In this document: positions 10,261 through 10,865 of the stretch, one piece after another
Layout of the letters: every line of letters begins with the position of its first letter
Position numbering within the stretch: position 1 is the first letter of the stretch
DNA from: Candidatus Shapirobacteria bacterium
Lineage (GTDB): Bacteria > Patescibacteriota > Microgenomatia > UBA12405
Direction: 5' to 3'
Length of the DNA: 35,096 nucleotides
Assembly (NCBI GenBank): GCA_018062705.1
Contig: JAGORQ010000010.1
Location: 1 to 35,096, forward strand
Program-made: the position numbers and the translations under genes
The notes under the pieces: model-generated
Databases searched by the model: none
What the model saw: only the letters and a program-made list of their open reading frames with translations
Told to the model about the DNA's origin: nothing

Positions 10261-10321
10261 ATTACAGTATTGACAATTTGTAGTAAAAGTATCTAACTTA
10301 ATAATTAAAATAAATGTAATT

Positions 10322-10429
10322 TTTTGCGGGGCTGAAATGCAGAAAGGCTCTACTGCGGAGCGTGAGTAGGTCCGAAAGGATATCGAAAATGCTACGATGA
10401 AGGCAGGTCGCCCTTCCAGCTCCACAAAA
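10322..10429 (+). ncRNA. Strongly folded RNA-like element of unknown family
   Basis: A closing stem pairs 10322-10334 (TTTTGCGGGGCTG) with 10417-10429 (CAGCTCCACAAAA), 12 of 13 pairs including one G-U. Inside are four hairpins: CTACT/AGTAG with a 10-base loop, GTCC-GAAA-GGAT with a GNRA tetraloop, ATCG/CGAT with a 9-base loop, and GAAGG/CCTTC with an 8-base loop abutting the closing stem. The GAAA loop favours the plus strand. It overlaps the last 38 bases of the minus-strand ORF. It lacks the AGCAG loop of SRP RNA, the T-loop of tRNA/tmRNA, and a tag reading frame. I do not recognise the family. Confidence 0.5.
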
Positions 10430-10865
10430 GTCTATATTTGTCCAAATAACTTTCTTTACCTACTCTCAACCTAAAAGCAGTCACTATAAAATTCGTTTCG
10501 TCTTGTCCTTCATCAAAGTTTGATTCACAGGTTTCCAATGAACATAGATACATCACTTCTTGGATAATTTTCGTAAAAACATAATTTCCTTTTTTACCAG
10601 ATCTATTTTTATAAATACTATCCGGATATTTTACTAAATGCACCACATTTCTCAACAAAAAATCAAATTCCTCGGCTGGTTTTTTGTCATACATATGTTT
10701 CATTGACTTCGCCGACCAATACACTTTCTGCGATTTTAAATTAAGAGACTTTTTAACAGCCTTTGTTATTGTACATAAAAACAGAATTCTGTCCGAAACC
10801 ATTGCGTTCTCACCAGTATCTTTTATAAACAACTTAAAAAATTTTATCGCCCCGCAATTTTCCAC
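10392..10865 (-). CDS. Small protein resembling BECR-fold (barnase/EndoU/ColicinE5/RelE) nucleases
   Basis: 157 residues, the only minus-strand gene in this part of the window. Conserved-looking stretches are VYWSAKSMKHMYDKKPAEEF (about 48-67), KYPDSIYKN, YVFTKII, NFIVTAFRL and the C-terminal LLWSWKGDLPSS. This pattern (a K-H motif, P-D-x-I-Y, F-x-K, V-T-A-F-R, then W-x-W) recalls phage-type BECR toxin nucleases, from memory and not verified by search. The start is GTG 10865, preceded by an AGGAG Shine-Dalgarno on the minus strand (10876-10880), which is unusual for this window and hints at foreign origin. Its 3' end is inside the folded element at 10322-10429. No antitoxin-like protein gene is adjacent. 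Confidence 0.65.
   Translation of the reverse strand: MENCGAIKFFKLFIKDTGENAMVSDRILFLCTITKAVKKSLNLKSQKVYWSAKSMKHMYDKKPAEEFDFLLRNVVHLVKYPDSIYKNRSGKKGNYVFTKIIQEVMYLCSLETCESNFDEGQDETNFIVTAFRLRVGKESYLDKYRLLWSWKGDLPSS

Follow-up and report, generated by a model that had tools for sequence, protein, structure and literature searches.

What kind of element lies between recO and glyS in the 1.07-Mb genome of Candidatus Shapirobacteria, where a compact region capable of forming several hairpins runs opposite to the end of a nuclease-like gene? The window analyzed here is the whole 35,096-nt stretch of contig JAGORQ010000010.1, within which the element occupies 10321..10430 on the + strand and the convergent gene 10392..10865 on the - strand (157 aa, GTG start at 10865), leaving the last codons of the gene antisense to helices P3, P4 and P1 of the element. 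The original prediction, made from the sequence alone, described a structured RNA that no known family fits fully and offered a ribozyme, an antisense regulator and a recombination site as possible identities. Familiar structured RNAs were set aside as follows: ARAGORN finds nothing at the element; a full tmRNA is located elsewhere in the genome, although the closing stem of the element, P1, resembles tmRNA ends by eye; and the SRP RNA model RF00169 matched nothing in this genome, the motif here also differing from SRP. As a separate observation, SRP RNA was undetected by Rfam models in the genome family of the window (33 relatives), with no match at E <= 0.001 to RF00169 (32 genomes) or RF01854 (18 genomes).

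The single-sequence fold of the window element is not unusual (z = -1.52), and so homologues were used as the evidence for structure. One relative, L024, was found by scanning GTDB contigs with the convergent ORF, and carries an RNA 87% identical to the window copy with compensatory changes in its stems; a DNA similarity search with the RNA within the same family returned chance matches only. The Rfam model of skipping-rope RNA (RF02924), used by itself over 380 Patescibacteria genomes, yielded L033 (E = 0.018), which has the same neighbor gene. A covariance model built from the window, L024 and L033 (R1) then matched 14 further loci scattered over many families (E from 1e-6 to 1e-25), bringing the set to 17 RNA loci; the window element itself scores 130 bits against R1. 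Several other candidates were discarded. L029 just reaches the RF02924 threshold and looks like chance, lacking by eye both GATG and the P4 signature described below, while other weak RF02924 matches (L030-L032, L034-L037) fall mostly in coding DNA. Three matches to a viral pattern, GATGAAGG..CCTTCCA, were likewise read as chance, as was a terminal inverted repeat, TTGCGGGGC/GCCCCGCAA (10324/10849), that is not seen in L024 and whose right arm falls inside the 5' coding part of the ORF.

Comparison of the 17 Patescibacteria (CPR) copies confirms that the structured RNA is real and that they have its fold in common. Compensatory changes occur in 20 of 35 pairs, and 94.5% of alignment cells pair, against 84.3 +/- 0.8 in shuffles. 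Both sides have changed in 74 cells, compared with 25 +/- 4.4 in shuffled alignments (none of 500 shuffles reaches 74); fitting the alignment to the model biases these covariation counts in its favor, but controls with partners slid by 1-3 columns nonetheless gave far fewer, only 6-11 double-changed cells. Nor is the conservation explained solely by the C-terminal coding sequence on the opposite strand, since three helices essentially outside the ORF hold 35 double-changed cells where shuffles give 14 +/- 4 (0/500). The prediction of a multi-hairpin structured + strand RNA antisense to the end of the nuclease gene is borne out.

The element is enclosed, as predicted, by a closing stem, P1, whose 5' strand (10321..10334, +) pairs with 10417..10430; compensatory change is seen in 10 of its 14 pairs, and the window copy has one C·A mismatch. 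Four separate hairpins had been proposed inside this stem, but the alignment instead supports three arms: P2, P3 bearing P3a, and P4. P2 (10339..10356, stem 10339-10342/10353-10356) reads GCAG-AAAGGCTCTA-CTGC and carries a near-invariant loop sequence, AAAGGCTC, that canonical skipping-rope RNAs also possess. The P3 stem (10359-10363/10389-10393, arm 10359..10393) is topped by P3a (10370..10381, stem 10370-10373/10378-10381), which reads GTCC-GAAA-GGAT and is the GAAA-tetraloop hairpin of the original prediction; double changes occur in seven of the nine pairs of P3 and P3a together. A conserved ACGATG (10394..10399), of which GATG is also found in canonical skipping-rope RNAs, leads into P4 (10399..10416, stem 10399-10403/10412-10416), GAAGG-CAGGTCGC-CCTTC, in which 100% of cells are paired and from which the 3' strand of P1 continues with no linker. 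The GGC of the P2 loop (10346-10348) is able to pair with the GTC of the P4 loop (10407-10409), and this loop-loop pairing of GGC with GCC or GUC is kept in 17 of 17 copies, with one-sided change only; an alternative AUCG/CGAU pairing was not conserved among homologues.

Three features indicate that the RNA is most likely encoded on the + strand, an assignment we consider well supported from sequence: the alignment of 17 sequences contains 62 G·U cells but only 14 A·C cells; the end loops of the middle arm read on that strand as GAAA, GCAA, CUUG and similar; and sigma-70-like sites occur just upstream at 11 of 17 homologous sites (P <= 0.07 in a simple scan). In the window the candidate promoter, read from the sequence as TTGACA, an 18-nt spacer and TAACTT (10270..10299, +), is borderline in the same scan (P = 0.07) and absent from the list returned by a stricter consensus scan.

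Skipping-rope RNA was reportedly first described in 2017 as one of many RNAs found computationally, and to our knowledge it has no known function; neither a function nor a link to PBECR proteins was found in the open literature searched, a body of text to which the original 2017 description does not belong. In a permissive Rfam scan the window matches RF02924 at 10327-10424. Two independent copies, the window and L024, align with the model over its full length (1-80/80), and the P1, P2 and P4 architecture is present with its characteristic loops in both the full-length match and the alignments. Scores are 14.3 bits for the window, 20.1 for L024 and 19.9 for both L033 and L090, all below the gathering threshold of 36.7, and the element is therefore filed as a distant subfamily rather than as a member of RF02924 by Rfam's rule. 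A pattern scan of viral contigs provided more than 20 canonical skipping-rope RNAs that have in common AAAGGCTC in the loop of P2, the GATG, and GCCG in the loop of P4. R1, derived solely from Patescibacteria, matches canonical RNAs exclusively in 415 kb (10/10, best E 0.0023), and R2, a covariance model built from 19 of the canonical RNAs, in turn matches the Patescibacteria elements exclusively in 88 kb (8/8, best E 0.0009). To judge from these reciprocal matches, the element is a distant, diverged skipping-rope subfamily. The earlier statement that no known family fits fully therefore holds only in part.

Apart from the closing stem, the P2 hairpin with its loop and the GATG, the two groups resemble each other in a middle arm that is often GNRA-capped and in a GCCG-loop P4 hairpin stacked directly on P1. 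The Patescibacteria element differs in having an extra P3 helix beneath the tetraloop hairpin, in being convergent with, and usually overlapping, its partner gene, and in the lineage in which it occurs. According to Rfam, the skipping-rope family has a covarying pseudoknot (PMC7779021), which the putative loop-loop kissing here would fit.

The convergent ORF is predicted to encode a PBECR3-type RNase with a BECR fold (PBECR standing for phage Barnase-EndoU-ColicinE5/D-RelE-like), which agrees with its initial description as nuclease-like. Among its homologues, that at L117 matches PBECR3 (PF18812) with E = 1.9e-7 and 31.5 bits against a gathering score of 30, while those at L033 (E = 4e-5), L090 (8e-4) and L091 (5e-6) fall below that score, and the window protein had no PBECR3 match in a Pfam search. 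An AlphaFold2 model of the nuclease (pLDDT 81.5) has as its better structural neighbors almost exclusively BECR toxins and RNases, including CdiA toxins (a CdiA tRNase among them), BrnT, RelE, YoeB, HigB and colicin D, with modest Z scores of 4-6 (maximum 6.0). With Foldseek by itself no match had E below 0.001, and a sequence profile searched against the PDB returned nothing relevant. A His and a Thr (H38, T110) are invariant among homologues, in keeping with a BECR active site made of His plus Ser/Thr. We know of only predicted roles so far for solo PBECR nucleases. Iyer and colleagues proposed on the basis of prediction that PBECR domains are RNases (PMC5512222). The Patescibacteria branch differs from known PBECR3 proteins in being divergent, mostly under the Pfam cut-off, and in comprising solo nucleases with an RNA partner rather than domains within a polyvalent phage protein; as a query against phages and viral contigs, the Patescibacteria protein gave no match.

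RNA and PBECR genes show a tight genetic pairing in either orientation. A convergent PBECR-like gene accompanies the RNA at all 17 Patescibacteria loci. Its reading frame is disrupted at L024 and L094 beside an intact RNA, and the nuclease gene at L115 also looks broken. At L116 the gene stops just before the RNA, from which it follows that overlap is not required. The reverse search, with a protein profile over the same 373 genomes, gave strong matches in exactly the eight RNA-bearing genomes (8/8). On plasmids, where genes were found by tblastn with phage or plasmid PBECR proteins, each of the 12 loci read has an RNA match 3-133 nt downstream, strong in 11 (E <= 5.3e-7) and weak in Azospirillum (E 0.015); eight of these RNAs are co-directional with the gene and four convergent, and the gene ends before the RNA in all 12. 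The genera concerned are Bacillus, Brevibacillus, Priestia, Planococcus, Sporosarcina, Macrococcus, Fusobacterium, Streptococcus, Treponema and Azospirillum. Copy number tallies as well: two RNAs occur on each of two plasmids with two PBECR places, and on a 424-kb plasmid the single RNA lies at the single PBECR gene. In phages, PBECR3 lies directly upstream of four of 19 distinct skipping-rope RNAs (E from 8e-19 to 3e-22) and at no other place in about 450 kb; in prophages the gene is flanked by the lysin and the att site, where accessory genes are typically located. The remaining 15 RNAs have no adjoining PBECR3, and some are solitary in lytic phages or lie near tRNA clusters.

Individual plasmid and phage loci offer further observations. 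The Bacillus subtilis plasmid pTA1060 (L126 563-2001) carries a gene with a weak HTH match, a PBECR3 gene and a convergent skipping-rope RNA, and B. velezensis and Planococcus plasmids have a similar layout. The PBECR3 gene on Streptococcus thermophilus pCS17-A (L130 1423-1854) is annotated as dihydroorotate dehydrogenase. The phage contig of L053, whose RNA is PBECR3-associated, has a second skipping-rope RNA (G736:C1 3917-4001), and the skipping-rope RNA of Brevibacillus phage Jenst (L120 2452-2534, +) adjoins a cluster of six tRNA genes. At L064 and L084 the RNA lies antisense within very large phage ORFs (1600-1700 aa). L052 encodes a CptN type III toxin (994-1684, -; PDB 4rmo, E 7e-22); two 46-nt repeats precede the toxin gene, and a skipping-rope RNA follows directly behind it. 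Two S. suis-type prophages, L073 (811-1406, -) and L041 (250-725, -), have nearly the same RNA and 3' flank, but where PBECR3 would be expected L073 has another ORF, which by eye may be ToxN-like; the comparison also suggests by eye an upstream promoter-RNA-terminator layout.

Given a small putative RNase gene and a structured RNA that occur together whatever their relative orientation, both on plasmids and at accessory-gene sites of prophages, the simplest reading is a toxin held in check in trans by an RNA antitoxin. We propose, with a probability of roughly 60%, a two-component module in which a PBECR RNase toxin is neutralized by a tRNA-shaped RNA. The BECR nuclease would be the toxin or an abortive-infection effector, and the RNA, transcribed from what appears to be its own promoter, would adopt a compact, tRNA-like shape, bind the nuclease in trans and neutralize it, possibly as a tRNA decoy. 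P1 would correspond to the acceptor, P2 to the D-arm and P4 to the T-arm, stacked without a linker, and the P2 loop GGC would kiss the GCC or GUC of the P4 loop as D- and T-loops do. That the protein is an active nuclease, that the RNA binds it directly and inhibits it, and that it does so as a tRNA decoy are all inferences; tRNA is the target of several BECR toxins, as established for colicin D and certain CdiA proteins, which makes a decoy mechanism attractive.

This proposed module resembles type III toxin-antitoxin systems (ToxIN, CptIN, TenpIN) in pairing a small gene for a putative endoribonuclease with a structured RNA, also small, and in being carried by plasmids and prophages. It is unlike them in its predicted toxin fold, which is BECR and not ToxN, and in its RNA, which is single-copy and downstream or convergent, whereas type III RNAs are tandem repeats upstream of the toxin. 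The nuclease had no sequence match to ToxN, which is also absent from the list of structural neighbors, an absence that does not exclude a ToxN fold.

The strongest competing explanation, although an unlikely one, is that the RNA serves the nuclease as substrate, guide or cofactor and not as inhibitor. In its favor, the genetic pairing in both orientations applies equally, BECR proteins act on RNA, and solitary skipping-rope RNAs in lytic phages suit a target or a decoy. However, the loops are highly conserved and no guide-like variable segment is present, and PBECR also occurs inside polyvalent proteins, where no dedicated RNA has been described (PMC5512222). We consider it distinctly improbable that the + strand transcript acts in cis, pairing with the 3' end of the nuclease mRNA to lower expression in a type I-like manner. 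The overlap behind the earlier suggestion of an antisense regulator does exist: the window shows perfect complementarity over about 38 nt, most Patescibacteria copies overlap the gene, and the arrangement is convergent. Yet neither L116 nor any of the 12 plasmid loci overlaps, eight plasmid RNAs lie on the same strand as the gene, and covariation in helices outside the ORF keeps structure rather than complementarity; the pairing in both orientations itself argues against simple antisense control. More doubtful still is that the RNA is independent phage or plasmid cargo merely travelling beside toxin genes in accessory regions, as could be argued from the many phage RNAs that PBECR3 does not accompany, from the different ORF before nearly the same RNA at L073, and from CptN at L052; this fits poorly with near-perfect two-way pairing in Patescibacteria and plasmids, matching copy number, and an RNA that always directly follows the gene. 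Finally, a structured recombination or attachment site acting as DNA, or a self-cleaving ribozyme, is very improbable: the distribution is sporadic and mobile and the original prediction saw a loose resemblance to the hatchet ribozyme core, but no hatchet match appeared up to E = 10 with all Rfam families under permissive filters, nor any other ribozyme match, and the G·U excess, GNRA and similar stable + strand loops and promoter-like sequences all point to RNA.

Returning to the toxin and RNA-antitoxin module, the phage RNAs that lack PBECR3, some of them solitary, imply that the RNA may have another or a wider role; they may be counter-defence decoys or a sign of that wider role. The most general form of the proposal, which we hold to be evenly poised, is that skipping-rope RNAs would be tRNA-shaped antitoxins of PBECR-type RNases, constituting a toxin-antitoxin type with a toxin fold and an RNA of its own. 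Such a type would extend across Patescibacteria as well as the plasmids and prophages of Bacillota, Fusobacteriota and Spirochaetota, and lytic phages would keep just the RNA, as a decoy against host defence. In any case, the pairing of RNA and PBECR gene gives both the orphan skipping-rope RNA and the solo PBECR nucleases a testable function, and adds to the poorly studied Patescibacteria a candidate module of RNA antitoxin and toxin in which the predicted toxin fold is unusual.
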